Below are positions 9,782 to 49,634 of a stretch of 64,000 bases of DNA, one piece after another. The notes below the pieces were generated by a model. It searched no databases. It saw only the letters and a list, made by a program, of their open reading frames with translations, and was not told the origin of the DNA. The DNA is from Marivirga harenae (lineage in GTDB: Bacteria; Bacteroidota; Bacteroidia; Cytophagales; Cyclobacteriaceae), in assembly GCF_030534335.1 (NCBI RefSeq), contig NZ_CP130565.1, forward strand, positions 1,571,501 through 1,635,500, written 5' to 3'. Made by a program: the position numbers and the translations under genes. Each line of letters starts with the position of its first letter. Within the stretch, counting starts at the first letter, position 1.

Positions 9782-12700
9782 GATTATACTTTACAACCAT
9801 ATTGCTATTCTTAGTTATTTTTGGCCTACAAGCTCAAAATGAAGAAAGCGATTTAGAATCATCTAAACCTGGTTTTCTAGGTGAGGTTCAGATGGATTTG
9901 GCACAAATTGGAACCGAAAAATCGGAAAGCGTATCACTTTTTTTTCAAAACTACTGGAATCAGGATAATTTATTCACTCAGCAGAACCGGCTATTAATTG
10001 AAGAAATCTACGGTAAGATGAAATCTGATAATCTTTCTATTCGTGATTTTAGACTTCCTTTCATCAGTACGCTCTCTGGTGCAGCTTCCAATTTGGAAGA
10101 CCCAGCAAATGCCATTAATACATTCTTAGAAATCACAAAAAGAGCATATGAAGAATTGGAAGCCAATCAATTTAAAATACTTTTAAGAACTACAGAGCAA
10201 ATTTTAGAGAAAAAGGCAATTTTTTATAGCAGATATTATCAAGTGGCATTTTCAGGTGGTAGTGTCAGTTTTGAATGGCCTTCTGAACCAGTGGTATCAG
10301 TAGAATATGAAACAGAGCCTCAAGAAGAAGTAGTAGAAAGTGAATGGGGATCTGAAGCAAATGATGGCTGGGAAGATAATGATGATGGCGGATGGGGTAG
10401 TGATGATAGTTGGGGAGACGATAGTTGGGGCAAGGAGGAAGCTGTCGCAGAAGAAACCAACCAAGTAGAGGAAAATAGTCCAGTTGACTTATCAGCTTTT
10501 AGCGAGCCAATGCCCATTTTGGAAGGGCCGATAGTGAAATTGAAAAACATAAATCTCAAATTTCTTAATACAACCGATTCTATTAAGGTGAATAGCGTTT
10601 CAGGTAAATTGGAATTGATCGGTAACACTTTTGTAGCTGAGAGTGGGGTATTGACCTGGGAACACCTAGGAAGAGAAAAGGATGAATTGAATGCAGAATT
10701 GTCGGAGTTTACTTTTGAAGTGAATAAAAAGGAATTTTCAGCAGAGCAAGTTACGTTGAATTATCCAGATATTATTAAGCAACCAGTCAAAGGATTTATC
10801 GATTTTAATGCTGAAAACAGAAGTGGCGAAAATGCCGCATTCCCGTTTTTCCAATCCTACAAATCAGGTTATGACTTGAATTTTGTGGATAAAGATGGCC
10901 TGTACTTGAAAGGTGGGGTAACCTTAAAAGGTACCACTTTAAGTACCTCGGCTATGGATAGAAGTATAAGTAGTTTAGAACTACAGGGTAAAGCAGTAAA
11001 AATGTTTAGGGCGGAATCAAGAGAGTTTATTTATCAAGACAGCACTTTCTCATCGGAAGTCAGTAGCGTATCAATCTACCAACGTACAGATTCAATTTAT
11101 CATCCAGGTTTAAGTCTAGATTACAGGGTGAATGAAAATAACTTAAATCTTTTGAAAAATAAAGGGGATTTTAAGAACACCCCTTTTTATGCAAGTTACT
11201 TTAATATGGATTTTACGGCTGATAAACTAAGCTGGGATATGGACTCTTCTGTAGTGGATATATCAATATTGATAGCAGGAAATAGGGTGCCGGCTTTATT
11301 TGAATCAGCAGAATATTTTAACGAGTATCGATACAACAGTCTCTCAGGATTATATAGATTTCATGTTTTACAAGTGGCGGTAAACTATAGTAGAAATGCC
11401 AACATAAAAACCTTTTACACTAATGAAGTAGCTCAGAAAACAGGCATTGAAGAAAGCAAATTAAGATCTGGAATGAAATTGTTGATGCAAAATGGATTCA
11501 TAAAATATGACATTGTAAGCGGAAGAATAGAAATGTTGGATAAGGCCTTTCATTACGTGGATTCGAAATGGGGAAGGAAAGATTATGATAATGTTCAAAT
11601 ATCATCGGTATCTTCTGGGAAACCTAACGGCAAATTGAATCTGAATCAAGGCACTTTAGATATTTTTGGGGTGGAAGAGTTTATAATTAATGATAAGCTT
11701 GGCATTAGCGTTGAGCCAGATAGCGGTAAAGTGGTTTTGAGAAAAAACAGAGATATTCAATTTGATGGAACCGTTTACGCAGGTAATTATCAATACAAAG
11801 GAGCCGAGTTTAGAATGGACTATGATAGCTTTTTAATCTCAATGCCTCAAATTGATAATATTAAATTCAATTTAGCAGCTGGTGCTGATAGTAAACAATC
11901 CAATAAAGAACAAATACAAAACCAACTGGTAGAAACTGCTGGAGTATTATATATTAATGAACCGAACAACAAATCTGCTCAAAAGGAATTTCCTAAATAT
12001 CCAATTTTCAATGCCACTAAAGGGGCTACAGTATATTTTCTTGGGGAAGAAATTTTGAATGGGGTTTATGATCAAAGTCTGTATTTCGTGATCCCTCCGT
12101 TTGAAATTGATTCAGTGAGTAGCTCAGATCCCAACTCAATAGCTTTTGACGGAGTATTTCATTCAGGCGATATTTTTCCCGAATTTGAGGAAAAGCTAAG
12201 GGTGATGCCAGATAAATCGCTTGGGTTTAATCACCCTTTACCTGATGATGGAATTGATCTATTAGACGGAGAAGCAAGATTTTACGGTAACATTAAATTA
12301 GATAACAATGGCTTAAGGGGTGGAGATAAGATTGAGTATTTGAGCTCTACTATAAGATCTGAAAACTTCACTTTTTTTAAGGATTCAATTACCGCAATTG
12401 GGACTTATGCAACTATTGAGGCAGGTGATTGGGAAGGGGTGTCTTATCCTCAATTAGAAATTGCCGATTTTGATATGCGTTGGTTAACAGCCAAAGATAG
12501 TTTGTACATGTCCAATCGATCTGATGCATTTAAAATGTATGAGGAAACAGCCTCGCTGGAAGGGAAAGCTATTATTTCAAAAAAAGGACTTTTTGGGATG
12601 GGAGAAATGACCACACGGGGATCCAATACTTCATCAAACAAATTTAGTTTTGAAGAGCAAAGCTTTTCGGCCAGAAATGCAGAATTTAGAATTGAATCAA

Positions 12701-41056: not shown

Positions 41057-43558
41057 ATGGGATATTCTTGGAGTGAATTGGAAGATATCTTCCAAAATGC
41101 ATTGAAAATGCCTGCTTCAGAGCGGGAAATTTATGTAAAAAATCATGCTAATGATAATCAGCGATTGGAGCAAACCGTCCTGATGATGCTAAGAGATGCA
41201 GAAAATGCAGATCAATATTTTGATAAACTTCAGAAAGGTATAGCTGACGGCTTAGAGGAGAAACAGGAAGATATTTATCAAGCTGGTGATAAAATTGATA
41301 AATATAAGATTATCGAACCCATAGGCCGAGGTGGTATGGGACAGGTTTTTTTAGCCGAAAGAAATGACCGTCAATTTGAACAAAAAGTTGCTATTAAATG
41401 CTTCTCTGCTGATGAGGTCAAAGATAATTTCTTCGAGAATTTCCGAAATGAACAGCAATTTTTAGCCAATCTTAATCATGCTGCTATTGCTCACATTTTA
41501 GATGGCGGGGTTACTGATGAAGGCATCCATTATATCATTATGGAATATGTCGATGGCTTACCTGTTAATGAATACCTAAAATCATCTTCTTTAAACACAG
41601 GTGAAAGACTTCAACTTTTTATTAAAATATGTGATGCTATTAATTATGCTCATAATAGGCTGATTCTACATTTAGATATAAAACCATCAAATATTTTAAT
41701 TAATGAAGAAGGACATGTTAAGCTATTAGACTTTGGGATTGCCCAAAAGATTGGCAATAGACTGCAAAAACAGGTGCAAAAAGCTACACCCTTTTATGCG
41801 GCTCCTGAGCAGCTTAAATTGGGAGACATCACGATAGCAACTGATATCTTTCAGTTAGGAATTTTATTACATATTATTATTTCCGCTGAAAATCCGTTAA
41901 AGCCTAGTGAAGATAATCCTTATGATCGCAAGGTCAAACTATCACAATCCATTGATCAGGAATTGCTAGCTATCATTAATGTTTGTTTAAGTGAGTCCTC
42001 CGAATGTCGATATGTTTCAGTCTCTGCTTTAATAGAGGATGTCAAGAATTACCTGAATAAGTTTCCGGTTAAGGTTTATTCTAAGAAATGGTCTTATCGG
42101 GCCAAAAAGTTTACTGACAGAAATAAGATTAAAATTACACTTTCTGCCTTATTAGTTATATCGTTGCTATCGGGGCTTATTATTTCTTCTTATCAGTCTA
42201 AGATAGCACAAGAAAACGAACAAAAAGCGCTTAAAACAAGCGAATTTCTATTGGATATTTTTAGAAATGCTGACCCCGTTCAAACAGAGGGAGGGTTGAC
42301 TGTAAAAGATATTTTAGATAATAGTAGCAAGAGTGTTGAGTTGAAGTTTGACGACAAAGAATTTAAGCTTGATCTCTATGATAGGTTAATAAATATTTAT
42401 ACCAATGTTTACCTATGGAACGATTCTAAGAAACTTGCGGAAAAAGTTTTAAGAGATTACAAAGATATCAATACAAAAAGTAAATTGAATATTATGAGTA
42501 CCCTTGCCGGCAATTATCGTGAATTGTCGGAGTATCAAAAGGCAGATTCAGTTTTTGGATTGTTACTGTCGAAAATTCAGGACCCAAAAGAAAATTTACC
42601 ATTAGATTTTAAAATAGAAAATATCTTAGCCCTTGCAAAGTCGCAGCAAATTCAAGGTAAATATGATTCTGCTCTGCATTTTATCCATCAAGCAAATAGT
42701 TTGATAAATGACGATATGTTTGATAAGGATAAAGCTGATATATTCAATCATTATGCATCTGTCTATAAAGATTTATCGAAATTAGATACAGCGGCCTTTT
42801 ATCAAAAAAATGCAATCCGTATTTTAGAGGCGCACCATACACCTGAGCACCAAACTGCACTTGCTGTTTACTACAATAATCAGGGAAATTTATTTAAAGA
42901 TATGTCTCTGTATGATTCAGCAATTGCTTCCTTTGAACATTCCCTAAGTCTCAAAAGAAAAATAGCTTCGAAAGCAAATCTTGACATAGCAATTACCTAT
43001 AGTAATTTAGGAGGGGTACATTACAAGAAGAAGAATTATGACAGCGCCTCTTCTTACCTGAACAGAGCAATAGAAATCTTTAGTACTCAGTTAGAACCGA
43101 GTAATAATTTTATAATATCCACACGATATAGTTTAGCGAATATATATTATAATCAAAGGAACTTTCAAAAGGCGTTATTTGAATACCAGGAAGTACTAGC
43201 AGCAGATACTGCAAATTTCGGCTTGGATCATCCCTATATCGCGGATGATTATATTTCCTTATCAAATTGTTATATAGGTTTGAAGCAGATGGATAAGGCA
43301 TTTGGGTTGCTCAAAAAAGCGGAAGGTATTATTGAGGCTAAATTTGATAAGAGTCATCAGAAGACTTCTTATTTATACAATAAATTCGGGCAGTTTTATG
43401 AGGAGCAGAAAAATTACGCTATGGCTCAAATGTATTTTCAGGAATCGTATACTTTAGTCGAACAGTATTTGGGAGAGGATCATCGCTATACTAAGCTGTA
43501 CAAAAAAGATGTCGAGCGAATTACTAAGCTAATGATTGGTAAAATTGAAAATCTTTAA
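41057..43558 (+). CDS. Membrane Ser/Thr protein kinase with TPR sensor domain
   Basis: An 833-residue protein. A short N-terminal helical segment (1-75) leads to a Hanks-type kinase domain: glycine loop IGRGGMGQVFLA (89-100), VAIK (K114), catalytic loop HLDIKPSNIL (D207, with Leu in place of the HRD arginine), and DFG (225-227). One membrane helix follows at about 355-373 (LSALLVISLLSGLIISSY). The outer part holds about eight TPR-like repeats, e.g. AVYYNNQGNLFKDMSLYDSA and AITYSNLGGVHYKKKNYDSA. It should sense something at the periplasmic side through TPRs and signal to the upstream sigma factor, with which it forms an operon. Confidence 0.93.
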   Translation: MGYSWSELEDIFQNALKMPASEREIYVKNHANDNQRLEQTVLMMLRDAENADQYFDKLQKGIADGLEEKQEDIYQAGDKIDKYKIIEPIGRGGMGQVFLAERNDRQFEQKVAIKCFSADEVKDNFFENFRNEQQFLANLNHAAIAHILDGGVTDEGIHYIIMEYVDGLPVNEYLKSSSLNTGERLQLFIKICDAINYAHNRLILHLDIKPSNILINEEGHVKLLDFGIAQKIGNRLQKQVQKATPFYAAPEQLKLGDITIATDIFQLGILLHIIISAENPLKPSEDNPYDRKVKLSQSIDQELLAIINVCLSESSECRYVSVSALIEDVKNYLNKFPVKVYSKKWSYRAKKFTDRNKIKITLSALLVISLLSGLIISSYQSKIAQENEQKALKTSEFLLDIFRNADPVQTEGGLTVKDILDNSSKSVELKFDDKEFKLDLYDRLINIYTNVYLWNDSKKLAEKVLRDYKDINTKSKLNIMSTLAGNYRELSEYQKADSVFGLLLSKIQDPKENLPLDFKIENILALAKSQQIQGKYDSALHFIHQANSLINDDMFDKDKADIFNHYASVYKDLSKLDTAAFYQKNAIRILEAHHTPEHQTALAVYYNNQGNLFKDMSLYDSAIASFEHSLSLKRKIASKANLDIAITYSNLGGVHYKKKNYDSASSYLNRAIEIFSTQLEPSNNFIISTRYSLANIYYNQRNFQKALFEYQEVLAADTANFGLDHPYIADDYISLSNCYIGLKQMDKAFGLLKKAEGIIEAKFDKSHQKTSYLYNKFGQFYEEQKNYAMAQMYFQESYTLVEQYLGEDHRYTKLYKKDVERITKLMIGKIENL

Positions 43559-43571
43559 ATTAAGTCTACAT

Positions 43572-43600
43572 GTTTTAAGTGTGTTTTTAAAACTTTTGTT
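43572..43600 (+). terminator. Weak AT-rich terminator after the Ser/Thr kinase gene
   Basis: GTTTTAA (43572-43578) pairs with TTAAAAC (43587-43593), followed by TTTTG. The stem is AT-only apart from one G-C pair, so the call is tentative. Confidence 0.35.
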
Positions 43601-43641
43601 CTACAAAGACATTTACTTGTAATAATAAATTTGATTCAAGT

Positions 43642-45105
43642 ATGAAAGCAGTTATTGTTGGTGCTGGAATAGGTGGGTTAGCCACCTCAATTCGGTTAGC
43701 AAAAAAGGGGTATGAGGTAGAAGTCTTTGAGCAGAACAACTATCTTGGCGGAAAGCTATCAGTCTTTGAACAAGAGGGGTTTCGATTTGATGCTGGTCCT
43801 TCTTTGTTTACCTTACCAGAGTTAGTTGATGATTTGGTTGCGTTACAAAGCGAGGAAAGCACTATTAAGTTTCCCTACAAAAAACTAGATGAATCTTGCA
43901 GGTATTTTTGGGAAGACGGGAAGCGACTTACTGCCTATACAAGTCCTAAGAAATTTGCATTAGAAGTTGAGCAAGTCTTAGGGGTACCCGTAAAAGTAGT
44001 AACAGATTATATCAAAAATGCTGAGTTTAAATATGAAAAATCAGCCAAGATATTCTTAGAAAAATCTTTACATAAGCGCTCAACATTTCTCTCGAAAGAG
44101 ATCCTGCCGGCATTACTAAGCATATATAAGTTTGGCTTGTTTGAGAGTATGAATCAAGTGAATGAATCCAAATTAAAGCATCCGAAATTGGTTCAGTTAT
44201 TCAATAGATTTGCAACCTATAATGGCTCAAGTCCTTATCAGGCGCCTGGTATTTTGACTTCTATTGCTAATTTGGAATTAAATAGAGGTACTTTTTATCC
44301 TGAAAATGGAATGTATCAGATAACGCATACACTTGCTCAGGTGGCGGAAAGCTTAGGCGTAAAAATCCATTTTAATGCGGGTGTTGAGAAAATTCTTGTT
44401 GAAAATAAAGTAGCCAAAGGAATTGTAGTCAATGGAAAGATAAGTTCTGCAGACTTGGTGGTGAGTAATATGGACATTTACCCTACCTACAAAAAGCTGC
44501 TAAGTGATCAAAAACAACCTGAAAATATCCTGAATCAGGAAAGAAGTAGTTCTGCTTTAATTTTTTATTGGGGTATTGAAAAGGAATTTGGAGAGCTTGG
44601 TCTGCACAATATTTTCTTTAGTGATGATTATCATCAGGAATTCCACAATATTTTCAAGACGAAGACGATAGCTCCCGACCCTACTATTTATGTCAACATA
44701 ACTTCCAAACATACTCCTTCTGATGCCCCAGACGGAATGGAGAATTGGTTTGTCATGGTGAACGTACCTTCCAACAGTGGACAAGATTGGGATCAATTGA
44801 TCCCTGAGATCAAGAAGTCAGTCTTGAAAAAACTCAAAAGAATGCTAGGCATTGATATAGCTCAGTACATTAAAACGGAAAGTATTCTTGAGCCGCGAAC
44901 AATAGAAAGTAAAACCTCTTCTTATCAAGGAGCCTTATATGGAAGCAGTTCTAATAATCGATATTCTGCCTTTTTGCGACATCCTAATTTTCATCCCAAA
45001 ATAAAAGGACTATATTTTTCTGGTGGAAGTGTACATCCGGGTGGAGGAATTCCATTATGTTTGCTGTCAGCTAAGATAATTGATGATTTAAGTCCTTCAG
45101 TTTGA
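43642..45105 (+). CDS. CrtD/CrtI-type carotenoid desaturase
   Basis: An FAD-dependent carotenoid desaturase (487 residues). The dinucleotide motif is VIVGAGIGGLATSIRLAKKG (4-23), followed by the family segments FDAGPSLFTLPELV and YNGSSPYQAPGIL and the C-terminal FAD motif YFSGGSVHPGGGIPLCLLSAK. The next gene is cruF-like and overlaps by one base. In Bacteroidota that make saproxanthin- or myxol-type pigments, the 1-hydroxycarotenoid 3,4-desaturase CrtD sits beside CruF, so CrtD is more likely than phytoene desaturase. A perfect TAnnTTTG (TAAATTTG, 43626-43633) lies just before the start. Confidence 0.88.
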   Translation: MKAVIVGAGIGGLATSIRLAKKGYEVEVFEQNNYLGGKLSVFEQEGFRFDAGPSLFTLPELVDDLVALQSEESTIKFPYKKLDESCRYFWEDGKRLTAYTSPKKFALEVEQVLGVPVKVVTDYIKNAEFKYEKSAKIFLEKSLHKRSTFLSKEILPALLSIYKFGLFESMNQVNESKLKHPKLVQLFNRFATYNGSSPYQAPGILTSIANLELNRGTFYPENGMYQITHTLAQVAESLGVKIHFNAGVEKILVENKVAKGIVVNGKISSADLVVSNMDIYPTYKKLLSDQKQPENILNQERSSSALIFYWGIEKEFGELGLHNIFFSDDYHQEFHNIFKTKTIAPDPTIYVNITSKHTPSDAPDGMENWFVMVNVPSNSGQDWDQLIPEIKKSVLKKLKRMLGIDIAQYIKTESILEPRTIESKTSSYQGALYGSSSNNRYSAFLRHPNFHPKIKGLYFSGGSVHPGGGIPLCLLSAKIIDDLSPSV

Positions 45106-45782
45106 TGAAAAAAGCAGTTTTAAGTGTGGTAGCAAATTTGAAATCCAAACCGATAGTTGGGATTATTATAATTTCTGCCTTCTATTTTTTTGGGGTAATC
45201 GGAATTCTGTCTGCTAACAGAGAGTGGTTTGTTGAGAAAACGGCCTTTAACTTATCCTTGTCTTTTGTAGTACTTATCATGTATCAGAATCACTACAAGT
45301 TTTCTTTAATTTGGGCTTTTGTATTTTGTTATGTGGTTGGCTTCTTAGCAGAATACCTAGGAGTTAACTTTGGATTGATATTCGGTGATTACTATTACCC
45401 TAAAACCTTGGGGCCACAATTAGGTGGTGTGCCCGTGATAATCGGTATCAATTGGTTTCTCATAACTTTTTGCGTAGCATCATTAATATTTCCCCTTAAA
45501 ACTAATGTATTCTTAAAAATATTATTAGCCACTATTACAACAGTCATAATTGACGTTCTAATTGAACCTGTAGCTATGGAATTGAATTTTTGGAATTGGG
45601 AAAATAATGAGGTGCCGTTACAGAATTACGTAGGATGGGCGATAGTTTCGTTCTTAATTTTCAGTTTTTATTTCCTCATTAAGATTCCACTAAGGAATAA
45701 AATGTCTATCGTCTTATTATTTTGGCAGGTGGTCTTTTTTGTGGTTTTAAATCTGTTTTTAGTAAAAAATTATTGGGCATAA
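45105..45782 (+). CDS. cruF: CruF-type carotenoid 1',2'-hydratase (DUF422 family)
   Basis: A 225-residue membrane protein with about seven helices. The ATG at 45105 shares one base with the crtD-like stop codon (TGATG). Family motifs: AEYLGVNFGLIFGDYYYPKT, GGVPVIIGINWFLITF, and IDVLIEPVAMELNFWNWEN. Known members hydrate the psi end of gamma-carotene-type pigments. Together with the desaturase this gives a 1'-hydroxy, 3',4'-didehydro end group. The earlier carotenoid genes (crtB, crtY) are not in this window. Confidence 0.88.
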   Translation: MKKAVLSVVANLKSKPIVGIIIISAFYFFGVIGILSANREWFVEKTAFNLSLSFVVLIMYQNHYKFSLIWAFVFCYVVGFLAEYLGVNFGLIFGDYYYPKTLGPQLGGVPVIIGINWFLITFCVASLIFPLKTNVFLKILLATITTVIIDVLIEPVAMELNFWNWENNEVPLQNYVGWAIVSFLIFSFYFLIKIPLRNKMSIVLLFWQVVFFVVLNLFLVKNYWA

Positions 45783-46311: not shown

Positions 46312-48090
46312 ATGAATTTTAAAGGCCTTTTGCTTAAGTTTCTCATTTGGCGCGTAAAGCATGTCAGCACCACCAACTTTGTAATCATTACAAGTGGTGT
46401 GATTGGGATTATAGCTGGATTAGCAGCTGTAACACTTAAGGAAAGTGTGCATATTCTTCAAAATTTCTTGACCCGGGATTTTCAACAGGAATTTGGAAAT
46501 TATTTGTACTTAAGTTACCCGCTTGTGGGGATTGTTTTGACGCTCCTTTTATCAAAGTATATTCTTAAAGAAAAGCTAGGGCATGGAATAACTGATATTC
46601 TTTATTCGATTTCCAAGAAGTCAAGTATTGTAAAGCGGACCAAAACATTTTCAAGAATGCTGACAAGTACTTTGACTGTAGGATTTGGGGGATCTGTGGG
46701 CTTAGAGGCACCTATTGTAGTGACAGGATCTGCTATTGGGTCTAATATTGGTAGATTAGTTCATTTGAATTATAAGCAGCGAACACTTTTGATTGGCTGT
46801 GGCTCCGCGGGTGCAATATCAGCTATATTTAATTCGCCTATTGCCGGTGTCATCTTTAGCATTGAAGTAATTTTGGCAGAGGTGACAATTAGTTCATTCA
46901 TCCCGCTTTTAATTGCTTCCGTTTGTGGAGCCTTGGTTTCTTTAACTTTATTAGGTGATGATGTTTTATTCTCATTCAATCTGACTGATGAATTTATTGC
47001 GGCTGACACCCCCTTTTATATTTTTTTAGGGATTTTTACGGGGATGGTAGCCCTCTATTTTACAAAAGTTGTTGGTAAAGTGGAAGGCTTGATTAAGAAT
47101 GTAAAAGGTGATTTAAATAGGGCGATTTTGGGTGGTGTTGCTTTAGGTTTTTTGATTTTTATACTTCCACCCTTATATGGTGAGGGGTATGATACTATAA
47201 CTAAGCTATTGGATGGTAATGCTCAAAGCATTCTGAACAATAGCTTATTTTTTGATGAGGTGGAATCATTCTTTCTATTGGTTTTATTTGCGGCAGGAAT
47301 TATATTAGTAAAGCCTGTAGCCACAGCTCTGACCATTGGTTCAGGTGGAAGTGGAGGGATATTTGCCCCTTCTTTGTTCTTAGGGGGGGTAACTGGATTT
47401 TTATTTGCTTATTTGATTAATAAACTAGGAATTACAGACCCAATCAGTTTGAGCAATTTTACTCTAGTTGGAATGAGTGGAGTAATGAGTGGAGTTTTGC
47501 ATGCCCCACTAACAGCTATTTTCCTGATTGCAGAAATTACTAGTGGTTATACCTTATTTGTTCCGTTAATGATTGTTTCCGCAATCTCATACAGTACAAT
47601 CTCGTATTTTGAAAAATATTCGATGTACACCAAACCATTAGTAGAAAAGGGAGATTTGATTTATCATGATAAGGATAGACAGGTTTTAAGTTTGATAGAT
47701 TTGAAAAAAGTCATTGAAACAGATCTCTTAACTATAGACCCAGATGCCACCCTGGGAGAATTGGTAGATTTAGTAAGGTTCTCTAAAAGAAATATTTTTC
47801 CTGTGGTTAATAAGGATCGGGAATTAATGGGGATTGTTACTTTGGATGATATTCGTGAGATTATGTTTGATGAGGAATCTCGAAAAAATATTATTGTTAA
47901 TACCCTAATGCACAGCCCACCTACCTTTGTTACCGGAAAGGAAAGTATGCGTTCTGTAATGATGAAGTTTGAAAAAACAGGTGCTTGGAACTTACCTGTA
48001 CTGGAAGATGGCCAGTATGAAGGATTCGTTTCTAAATCTAGAATTTTCAATGCCTACCGTAAAAAGTTGATTAGACAACAGATAGAATAG
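46312..48090 (+). CDS. ClC-family chloride channel/antiporter with CBS pair
   Basis: A 592-residue protein. The ClC membrane part (about 20-440) has the anion-pathway motifs GSVGLEAPIV (the glutamate equivalent to the gating Glu of GREGP), GSAGAISAIFNSPIAG and GSGGSGGIFAPSLFLGG. Two CBS domains at about 455-580 (TIDPDATLGELVDLV, FPVVNKDRELMGIVTLDDI, LPVLEDGQYEGFVSKS) suggest nucleotide regulation. With the gating glutamate kept it may be an H+/Cl- exchanger. It is convergent with the S41 peptidase gene across the gap that holds the DnaA boxes. Confidence 0.93.
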   Translation: MNFKGLLLKFLIWRVKHVSTTNFVIITSGVIGIIAGLAAVTLKESVHILQNFLTRDFQQEFGNYLYLSYPLVGIVLTLLLSKYILKEKLGHGITDILYSISKKSSIVKRTKTFSRMLTSTLTVGFGGSVGLEAPIVVTGSAIGSNIGRLVHLNYKQRTLLIGCGSAGAISAIFNSPIAGVIFSIEVILAEVTISSFIPLLIASVCGALVSLTLLGDDVLFSFNLTDEFIAADTPFYIFLGIFTGMVALYFTKVVGKVEGLIKNVKGDLNRAILGGVALGFLIFILPPLYGEGYDTITKLLDGNAQSILNNSLFFDEVESFFLLVLFAAGIILVKPVATALTIGSGGSGGIFAPSLFLGGVTGFLFAYLINKLGITDPISLSNFTLVGMSGVMSGVLHAPLTAIFLIAEITSGYTLFVPLMIVSAISYSTISYFEKYSMYTKPLVEKGDLIYHDKDRQVLSLIDLKKVIETDLLTIDPDATLGELVDLVRFSKRNIFPVVNKDRELMGIVTLDDIREIMFDEESRKNIIVNTLMHSPPTFVTGKESMRSVMMKFEKTGAWNLPVLEDGQYEGFVSKSRIFNAYRKKLIRQQIE

Positions 48091-48566
48091 TTTGCGAAAA
48101 TAAAATATTACATCTATTAATAGGATAGTTGTTGAACCCTGTTTATTTCGGTAAGTTGTTGACTTTCTGGTGCTTGTCCACAATTTCCAGATTATTAATT
48201 TTATTGTAATGACCATAAAGCCAGGCAGTTATAGATTTAATGTGGATAAATGTGGATAACTTGTCTAATTTGTGGATAAAAAAACAAAAGATAATTTGAA
48301 TCTTATTTTTGTTAAAAATTAGATGAATTTTAGGCTCTTAATGTAAGGTTTAATATAAATTAATATTGTTATAACATTTCTAATTTACATTAAACAAAAA
48401 CTAACTGATCAGAAATACTTAAGTTAATATTACCTCATTTTTTACTGTATGAATTAAATGTTTACTTTAAGTTAACTAAATTTAAATTCGAATGTGTGGA
48501 AGTTTAGTTTGATTTAAGTAGTAAAGTCAAATTCAGTAGTCAGGGCGAATATTGGAAAAGTACAAT
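48091..48566. other. Candidate replication-origin-like region
   Basis: A 476-base gap between two convergent genes, where no promoter is needed. It contains three perfect DnaA boxes in one orientation (48241, 48251, 48271), one near-match TTGTCCACA in the other (48174-48182), and then about 280 bases of very AT-rich DNA with repeated TTAATAT and TAAGTTAA words and the palindrome AGTTAACT. No coding frame is credible. This fits an oriC or another DnaA-binding locus; dnaA itself is not in the window. Confidence 0.55.
48241..48279 (-). promoter_or_regulatory. Cluster of three perfect DnaA boxes
   Basis: TGTGGATAA, the exact complement of the consensus box TTATCCACA, occurs at 48241-48249, 48251-48259 and 48271-48279. 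Start-to-start distances are 10 and 20 bases, so all boxes face the same side of the helix. Confidence 0.8.
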
Positions 48567-49634
48567 TTACTGATTTTTGATATAATCGATGGCTTCTTCA
48601 ATTAACCTATCTGTACCATTATTGAAATCAGTGGAATCCAACGCAATGGCAATGTCTGGCTGAACACCAAATTCAATGTTGTTTCCATTTGCATCAATTG
48701 TTTTAGTTGAAGAAAACCTGTATCTCCAGCCATTCGGAAGTTCATTATTGATGGGGAGTCCTCCGCCTCCGCCAGTTCGATCTCCCATCAAGGTTACATT
48801 GGGTAAAAAGCTCATCATACTAGCGAAAAAATTTGCAGAACTATAACTACTTCTATTGATCAATACCACAATGGGTTTATTGAATTTATAGTCTTCATCT
48901 CCATCAAATTCTAAAAATTTTTCTTCCGCCTTGGTGAAATCGTCATGTCCAGGCCCATTTTTATAAAACCAATCTGCAATTTTAATGCGCTCATTTGCAA
49001 ATCTATTAGCAATAGTAAATGCATTACTAATACTACCACCACCATTATTTCTGATATCAATGATTAGACCTGCTACAGGCCCCTCTAAACTGTTGATTTG
49101 GAAACTGCCTTCTCTTTCGTTGATTAGGAATTTGAGTACTAAATAATCCATCAGTGAGGTACTAACATTGCTGGAAAAACTTTCATAGTACATATATCCT
49201 ACCGAATCAATAATAGTATTGTGAATTGGTCCTGAAATCTGATAATCTTTACTAGGCACTAGGTAGTTTCTTTCAATAACATCAAAATTGAAATTGGTCG
49301 GATATTCTAAATACCAATCCCAGTTGCGTGAAACATCAATTCCTGCAGAAATATTTACATGACCATCTTCCAAAATAAACAGCATATCAGCCAAAATATT
49401 AAAGAGTTCAATACTGTTCCTGGCATTTATTGCTTTTGGTCTAAATACATCCTTTGCTGAATCCCAGTCAATATTTTTATCGGAAAAAAAGGAGTATTTT
49501 TCATCAACGGTTTGCCATAAGTGGTCAAATACTTTTGCATTTTCTGGTTCAGGATCTTCTTCCATAAAGAGCCTTTCACAAGAATAAAGACTAGCTGAGA
49601 TTACGAGCAATATGGCGAAGAGACTTTGTTTCAT
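48567..49634 (-). CDS. S41-family peptidase lipoprotein
   Basis: A 355-residue protein with a lipoprotein signal (SASLYSC, C19). The body matches the S41 (C-terminal-processing/tricorn-like) peptidase family: FDHLWQTVDEKYSFF, a short central region, LIIDIRNNGGGSISNAF, then VVLINRSSYSSANFFASMM with the likely catalytic serine, and TGGGGGLPINNELPNGW. Anchored on the outer or inner membrane facing the periplasm. Its start overlaps the upstream barrel protein gene by 4 bases. Last gene of the lysA run. Confidence 0.88.
   Translation of the reverse strand: MKQSLFAILLVISASLYSCERLFMEEDPEPENAKVFDHLWQTVDEKYSFFSDKNIDWDSAKDVFRPKAINARNSIELFNILADMLFILEDGHVNISAGIDVSRNWDWYLEYPTNFNFDVIERNYLVPSKDYQISGPIHNTIIDSVGYMYYESFSSNVSTSLMDYLVLKFLINEREGSFQINSLEGPVAGLIIDIRNNGGGSISNAFTIANRFANERIKIADWFYKNGPGHDDFTKAEEKFLEFDGDEDYKFNKPIVVLINRSSYSSANFFASMMSFLPNVTLMGDRTGGGGGLPINNELPNGWRYRFSSTKTIDANGNNIEFGVQPDIAIALDSTDFNNGTDRLIEEAIDYIKNQ

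Follow-up and report, generated by a model that had tools for sequence, protein, structure and literature searches.

A conserved DnaA-box element of the Cyclobacteriaceae as a candidate origin-proximal DnaA regulatory site

Does a cluster of DnaA boxes that lies far from dnaA mark the start of chromosome replication, or does it serve DnaA in some other way? The window analysed here, that is, the whole 64,000-base stretch C1:1571501-1635500 of a single-contig Marivirga genome of 4,373,458 bases, poses this question in a gap of 476 bases (48091-48566) between two convergent genes. On one side is the plus-strand gene for a ClC-type chloride channel/antiporter with CBS domains (46312-48090; Pfam Voltage_CLC 5.7e-80, CBS 6.6e-17), whose protein is 96% identical to those of L097 (Bacteroidetes bacterium) and L098 (Marivirga sp.) and 95% identical to that of L099 (Marivirga sericea); on the other is a minus-strand gene for an S41-family peptidase (48567-49634). 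Further genes in the window at 41057-45782 are those for a serine/threonine kinase with tetratricopeptide repeats, then an Amino_oxidase-domain protein and then a Caroten_synth protein. The initial annotation had proposed a replication origin or DnaA-binding locus in the gap, and the boxes that it listed were recovered at the positions given. Three exact boxes, TGTGGATAA, start at 48241, 48251 and 48271, a one-mismatch box in the opposite orientation occupies 48174-48182, the DNA beyond the third exact box is 78% A+T, and, of the 7 gaps that separate convergent open frames of at least 100 codons in the window, this one is the longest. The dnaA gene is indeed far away, at 2.82 Mb.

DnaA boxes as such are not enriched here. 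With up to one mismatch, 24 boxes were found in the window against 20.9 expected, and the genome has 63 exact boxes against 53 for a reversed control pattern. This corresponds to about 0.9 exact boxes per 64 kb, so the earlier estimate of less than one per window by chance holds, if barely; a fourth exact box of the window lies at 10884. The clustering of the boxes, on the other hand, is far beyond chance. Given the observed box density, the whole genome should by chance contain about 0.03 pairs of boxes, and 6e-6 triples, within 30 bp, and the next closest pair of exact boxes in the genome is 138 bp apart. Many similar clusters elsewhere had been named as a point against the locus, and we find this to be the only such cluster among the 63 exact boxes of the 4.37-Mb genome.

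To follow the cluster in relatives, we read the DNA 3' of the stop codon of ClC homologues from named genomes (best 80 of 546), searching for triples of boxes with an A-B spacing of 70-85 bp, a B-C spacing of 17-23 bp, at most 2 mismatches per box and an inverted box A. An element was found 3' of the ClC stop in 67 of these 80 loci. It is about 107 bp long and consists of an inverted box A followed after 78 bp by box B and after a further 20 bp by box C (start to start), the DnaA boxes being its most conserved part. Among the 67 elements from these best 80 of 546 ClC relatives, the A-B spacing is 78 bp in 57, the B-C spacing is 20 bp in 59, and both values hold in 56. Box A reads TTATCCACA in 24, TTGTCCACA in 21, TTATCAACA in 19 and otherwise in 3 of the same 67; box B is TGTGGATAA in 49; and box C is TGTGGAAAA in 32, TGTGGATAA in 21 and another sequence in 14. 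The inverted box A also appears in relatives listed without any requirement on orientation.

In the window the element extends from 48174 to 48279. Box A is the TTGTCCACA copy on the plus strand (48174-48182), with one mismatch and inverted relative to B and C; box B (48251-48259, minus strand) starts 77 bp from A, and box C (48271-48279, minus strand) starts 20 bp from B. The remaining exact box, at 48241-48249 on the minus strand, lies outside the conserved core and is an extra that some Marivirga have, as do a few other loci. Of the three exact boxes whose conservation in the same gene context had been suggested as a check, B and C are therefore kept and the one at 48241 is not part of the core, which consists of A (48174), B (48251) and C (48271). 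Three boxes pointing the same way were tried as a diagnostic pattern and dropped as too narrow, since the first of them is an extra: the pattern occurred in the own genome only of 295 in the class and in 8 of 216 in the family. An alignment of the whole gap against 60 family genomes gave matches in 7 including the own genome, mostly short and weak.

For wider searches we used a profile model, R1, made from 51 sequences and using sequence only; it matches 48173-48282 of the window with 55.5 bits, a score to be read with the window sequence being one of the 51. In 13 of the best 80 of 546 ClC loci (L103, L110, L114, L116, L118, L129, L134, L143, L151, L160, L172, L173 and L175) no element was found by the triple search, nor by R1 at E <= 0.01; three of these misses are short, with 53 bases after the stop in L118, 304 bases in L160 and a record without a stop in L151. 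A second set of ClC loci gave no element match in 8 of 30, one of which, L216, ends just after the gene. No A-B-C triple was found in 120 stretches of 20 kb from four genomes (3960 segments of 600 bp). All 5547 control segments together gave 47 triple hits, every one in a locus fetched as an element, ClC, origin or model hit, and a smaller control gave triples in 3 of 3001 segments, in a set contaminated by other copies of the element.

Across the order Cytophagales, the A-B-C pattern was found in 64 of 390 genomes, against 1 for the reversed control, and R1 matched 108 of 390 at E <= 1e-5. The model matches 73 of the 74 sampled Cyclobacteriaceae genomes, the single exception being G012, a proportion that is not independent of R1, many matched genomes being close to the sequences from which it was built. 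It also matches 7 of 8 genomes of f76, a family absent from the model, while families f2 and f3 together gave 5 weak matches. Where a genome had a second match, this was either weak, for instance at the origin of G036, or fell on the opposite strand at the same site. The element is thus kept through the sampled Cyclobacteriaceae and part of the order, with one strong copy per genome.

Between boxes A and B lies a palindrome, TAAnnnnCTGATnATCAGnnnnTTA, each half of which fits WATCARNNNNTTR; this we take to be the IHF consensus of E. coli, which may not be the specificity of the Marivirga protein. We scored this consensus in the A-B interval of 103 distinct elements (67 linked to ClC, with another 36 taken from the scan of the order and from retrieved flanks), which had been selected by rules that fixed the boxes and left the centre free. 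The best score was 9/9 in 47 of the 103, where shuffled sequences predict 1.4, and 8/9 in 49 (26.4 expected), with lower scores in 7 (75.1 expected). The consensus core sits at one of two mirror offsets in 80 of the 103. In the window the palindrome (48207-48231, read by eye) is degraded, and its right half, AGCCAGGCAGTTA (48219-48231), agrees with 7/9 fixed positions of the E. coli-derived consensus. This weak copy is the weakest point of an IHF-type reading for the Marivirga genome itself. One protein of the HU/IHF family (PF00216) was found in the own genome at E <= 0.001, encoded at C1:1567660-1567926 (L318:1501-1800). Among NCBIfam models it is matched best by IHF beta and alpha, with 63.8 bits against a cut-off of 120; HU models give it lower scores than IHF models do, and it reaches the cut-off of neither. 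A symmetric site together with a single subunit would fit a homodimer.

Where the chromosome starts to replicate was estimated from the skew at third codon positions, taken by gene strand over 862 open frames from the window and 60 further stretches of 20 kb each; a change-point model with a single origin and a single terminus was fitted on a grid of 20 kb. The fitted origin of the own genome (G000) is at 1.30 Mb, 0.33 Mb from the element, and placing it at the element costs a delta chi-square of 146. To the left and to the right of the element the skew at third positions is positive, and the total skew to the right is close to zero (-0.004). Elsewhere, a gap of 362 bp between open frames (1,293,127-1,293,488), 78% A+T, contains five one-mismatch boxes; a sixth, exact box lies at 1,293,517, just within the adjoining open frame, and mnmG, named from its sequence rather than by a family search, is about 2.7 kb away. 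The true oriC of the own genome is probably this region, C1:1293127-1293525 (L057:13127-13525), near mnmG and at the GC-skew switch. A search of 60 family genomes recovered the gene adjoining the mnmG-linked gap in 56, and 29 of the 30 mnmG-linked loci examined have at least three boxes (with at most one mismatch) in 400 bp, and up to eleven; the remaining locus has two.

The same fit was made in other genomes. In G036 the fitted origin is at 0.82-0.98 Mb, which includes the mnmG neighbourhood, and the ClC element is excluded by 33 units. The element is likewise excluded in G028, by 31 units; the best position there is 5.92 Mb, with an accepted range of 5.78-6.20 Mb that includes the mnmG-linked site, 4.4 units from the best. 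The fit in G030 has its best position at 3.64 Mb, between both sites, at a cost of 10.1 units for the mnmG site and 8.5 for the ClC site, where no element match was found. The suggestion of a replication origin, for which the place of the GC-skew minimum had been set beforehand as a possible refutation, is contradicted in G000, G036 and G028, where the minimum lies elsewhere. The companion suggestion of a DnaA-binding locus fares well, as conservation of the boxes and their spacing gives good support to predicted binding. The element resembles an oriC in being a DnaA box cluster beside AT-rich DNA and differs from one in its failure to coincide with the skew switch. We conclude that the box cluster is real and old, but very probably not the replication start site of the chromosome. 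Looking for an origin by its exact DnaA boxes would lead to the wrong place in the Marivirga genome, because five of the six boxes at the probable true origin are imperfect.

Searches in the wider class touch on origins as well. At E <= 0.001, R1 matches 32 of 395 genomes of the class, among them every one of the 9 sampled members of the family, and the matches outside the order are weaker and partly beside nadA/mnmG. In L328, L329, L331 and L336, from other families of the class, the match lies beside nadA, with the start of mnmG next in L331; these look like origins rather than the element and could help to define oriC there. In family f4 (L333, L334, L335 and L337) the matches to the A-palindrome-B part are almost gap-free and contain further box-like words, with flanking genes for an AIR-synthase-like protein (L335) and an enoyl-CoA hydratase (L337); they may be origins or belong to a second lineage of the element. 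Weak R1 matches also occur at some origin loci within the family, the best scoring 28 bits. The module is therefore not confined to the element, and a box-IHF-box arrangement may be common to oriC and the element, as in E. coli.

In every case that could be measured, the element is situated in the part of the chromosome near oriC. All 12 genomes with a confirmed element on the same contig as the mnmG-linked gene have the two 19-551 kb apart: 326 kb in G000, 188 in G036, 257 in G028, 147 in G013, 551 in G016, 116 in G017, 333 in G035, 110 in G050, 68 in G057, 19 in G006, 83 in G033 and 70 in G026. Fragmented assemblies bias such distances short, and the single contigs with a confirmed element are G000, G028 and G036 only, where the distance amounts to 7.5% (G000), 3.8% (G028) and 2.9% (G036) of the chromosome. 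Taking the strand of the origin gene as reference, 4 of the 12 elements fall to one side and 8 to the opposite side; with respect to fork movement, 7 are oriented one way and 5 the other. The ClC gene itself is 93-206 kb from the origin gene in G010, G030 and G040; no element match was found at ClC in G010 and G030, and in G040 the element is on another contig. In G012, the family genome without an R1 match at E <= 1e-5, ClC is 2.5 Mb from the origin-linked gene.

The element survives changes of neighbour. In eight family genomes the element is present with ClC on another contig, diverged or not found; no ClC match was found in the 3.2 kb around the element in these eight, and a thioredoxin-like gene pair lies near it in seven of them. 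In the loci examined from families f76 and f89, the neighbours of the element encode a nucleotidyl transferase, a thioredoxin-like and a SPOR protein; and an asparaginase and deaminase, LptC and a PKD protein. A relative of the S41 peptidase was found within 7 of the 67 element loci (from the best 80 of 546 ClC relatives), these being the Marivirga-type loci and two of Reichenbachiella.

To our knowledge, how Bacteroidota restrict replication to once per cycle is poorly known, and Cytophagales are not known to have Hda and SeqA, regulators of E. coli. Judged from sequence features, the element is likely to be an origin-proximal chromosomal DnaA regulatory site outside oriC, datA/DARS-like and working with an IHF-type protein. 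Since its layout differs from theirs and its features are mixed, we place it beside datA and DARS as working like them, without assigning it to either. From the boxes, their spacing, the palindrome, their conservation and their position we infer a mechanism in which DnaA would bind boxes A, B and C, and a homodimeric HU/IHF-type protein would bend the palindrome so that DnaA bound at A could meet DnaA on B and C. Once the replication fork has copied the site, such a complex might soon alter how much free DnaA there is or which nucleotide it carries. The weakest step of the mechanism is the direction of this effect, for which post-initiation down-regulation, by datA-like hydrolysis or by titration, would be favoured over DARS-like reactivation because the site is duplicated early. 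If the reading is true, off-origin DnaA-IHF regulation extends to another major phylum. More tentatively, and with the balance tilting somewhat against it, the element may represent a third control-site architecture in Cytophagales, distinct from datA and DARS, in which convergent boxes are folded round a two-fold symmetric, homodimeric HU/IHF site kept near oriC despite changing side, orientation and neighbours, and which acts as the main post-initiation brake. Our literature search, with most subscription journals outside its coverage, did not find a paper on such a site in Bacteroidota.

The closest competitor is a variant of this same reading, whose odds overlap with it: a DARS-like site that would reactivate ADP-DnaA through release of ADP, rather than inactivate ATP-DnaA. 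The opposed orientation of A and B resembles the head-to-head boxes I and II of DARS, as these are presented in the accessible part of PMC5742627. We nevertheless regard reactivation as rather unlikely, for the element is origin-proximal whereas DARS sites lie farther away and come into play later in the cycle (in part from PMC4585315), and its IHF-like site lies between the boxes and not outside the core. Less probable still is a plain titration sink, in which the boxes would merely hold DnaA, with no change of nucleotide state and no need of an IHF-type protein. Titration calls for DnaA boxes enriched near oriC, according to the excerpted text of PMC12371093, and the element would supply some, but 3-4 boxes beside 60 other exact ones add little capacity, and the fixed A-B spacing and the central IHF-like palindrome would be left unexplained.

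It is very unlikely that the region regulates or terminates the ClC gene or its convergent neighbour. Such a role could draw on the place of the element 3' of the ClC stop in the 67 of 80 loci (best 80 of 546 ClC relatives) and on a T-rich tract 3' of box C. In the window this short tract, TTTGAATCTTATTTTTG (48295-48311, plus strand), is of a kind kept in six Marivirga-type loci, and a T-rich tract ending in TTTTG occurs in 26 of the 67 ClC-linked elements from the best 80 of 546 relatives, against 3% of shuffles, 13 of them at equal distance. However, the element persists with other genes where its flanks contain no ClC match, and a search of the window copy for terminator-like hairpins and a search of Rfam both came back empty, so that the ClC-regulator, terminator and RNA readings were set aside. 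We give an equally slight chance to a chromosome-organising or segregation (centromere-like) site that would use DnaA or a dimeric protein at the palindrome; the origin-proximal position, single copy and central palindrome would suit it, but the DnaA boxes are the most conserved part and the palindrome resembles IHF half-sites. Least credible of all is an oriC at which DnaA on the boxes would open the AT-rich DNA to the right, since its boxes, its A+T-rich flank, its intergenic position and its place within 0.33 Mb of the skew minimum are outweighed by the three change-point fits, the positive skew on both sides and the boxes beside mnmG that sit at the skew switch.

Compared with the mnmG-linked oriC of the same bacteria, which it resembles in its DnaA boxes and in the weak R1 matches of some relatives' oriC loci, the element differs in having three exact boxes and one near-exact box off the skew switch, whereas the origin cluster lies at the switch and comprises six dispersed boxes, of which five are imperfect. 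Off-origin clusters of DnaA boxes that are datA-like occur in B. subtilis and Streptomyces, and the oriC-proximal clusters of B. subtilis (Okumura 2012) and the cluster of Streptomyces coelicolor repress untimely initiation, as reported in the sections of PMC5742627 consulted. The element is likewise a box cluster away from the origin, near oriC like those of B. subtilis, but no fixed A-palindrome-B-C layout is described for these clusters in the same sections. DARS1 and DARS2, the DnaA reactivation sites of E. coli, have, on the partial account available, a three-box core with an opposed pair and conserved spacing, as well as an IHF site in the case of DARS2, a layout that the element resembles in part. 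In the element, the opposed boxes A and B are 78 bp apart with the IHF-like site between them, whereas the accessible description of DARS2 puts its IHF and Fis sites in a regulatory region outside the box core; the element also differs from DARS in being origin-proximal. At E. coli datA, the site of DnaA-ATP hydrolysis, IHF bends the DNA between DnaA boxes in a spacing-dependent manner, and the site lies near oriC and is thus duplicated early (extracts of PMC5742627 and PMC4585315). As far as those extracts describe datA, the element is like it in being a non-coding cluster of boxes with a putative IHF site between them, under constrained spacing and near but outside oriC: in the family consensus, boxes flank a predicted IHF site at constrained spacing (7/9 in the window copy), and the distances of 2.9, 3.8 and 7.5% in the three single-contig genomes place it close to oriC yet outside it. 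Compared by layout, it is unlike datA in that the essential boxes of datA share one direction whereas box A is inverted (convergent) relative to B and C, in its length of about 107 bp against the 262 bp of minimal datA, and in the two-fold symmetry of its central site.
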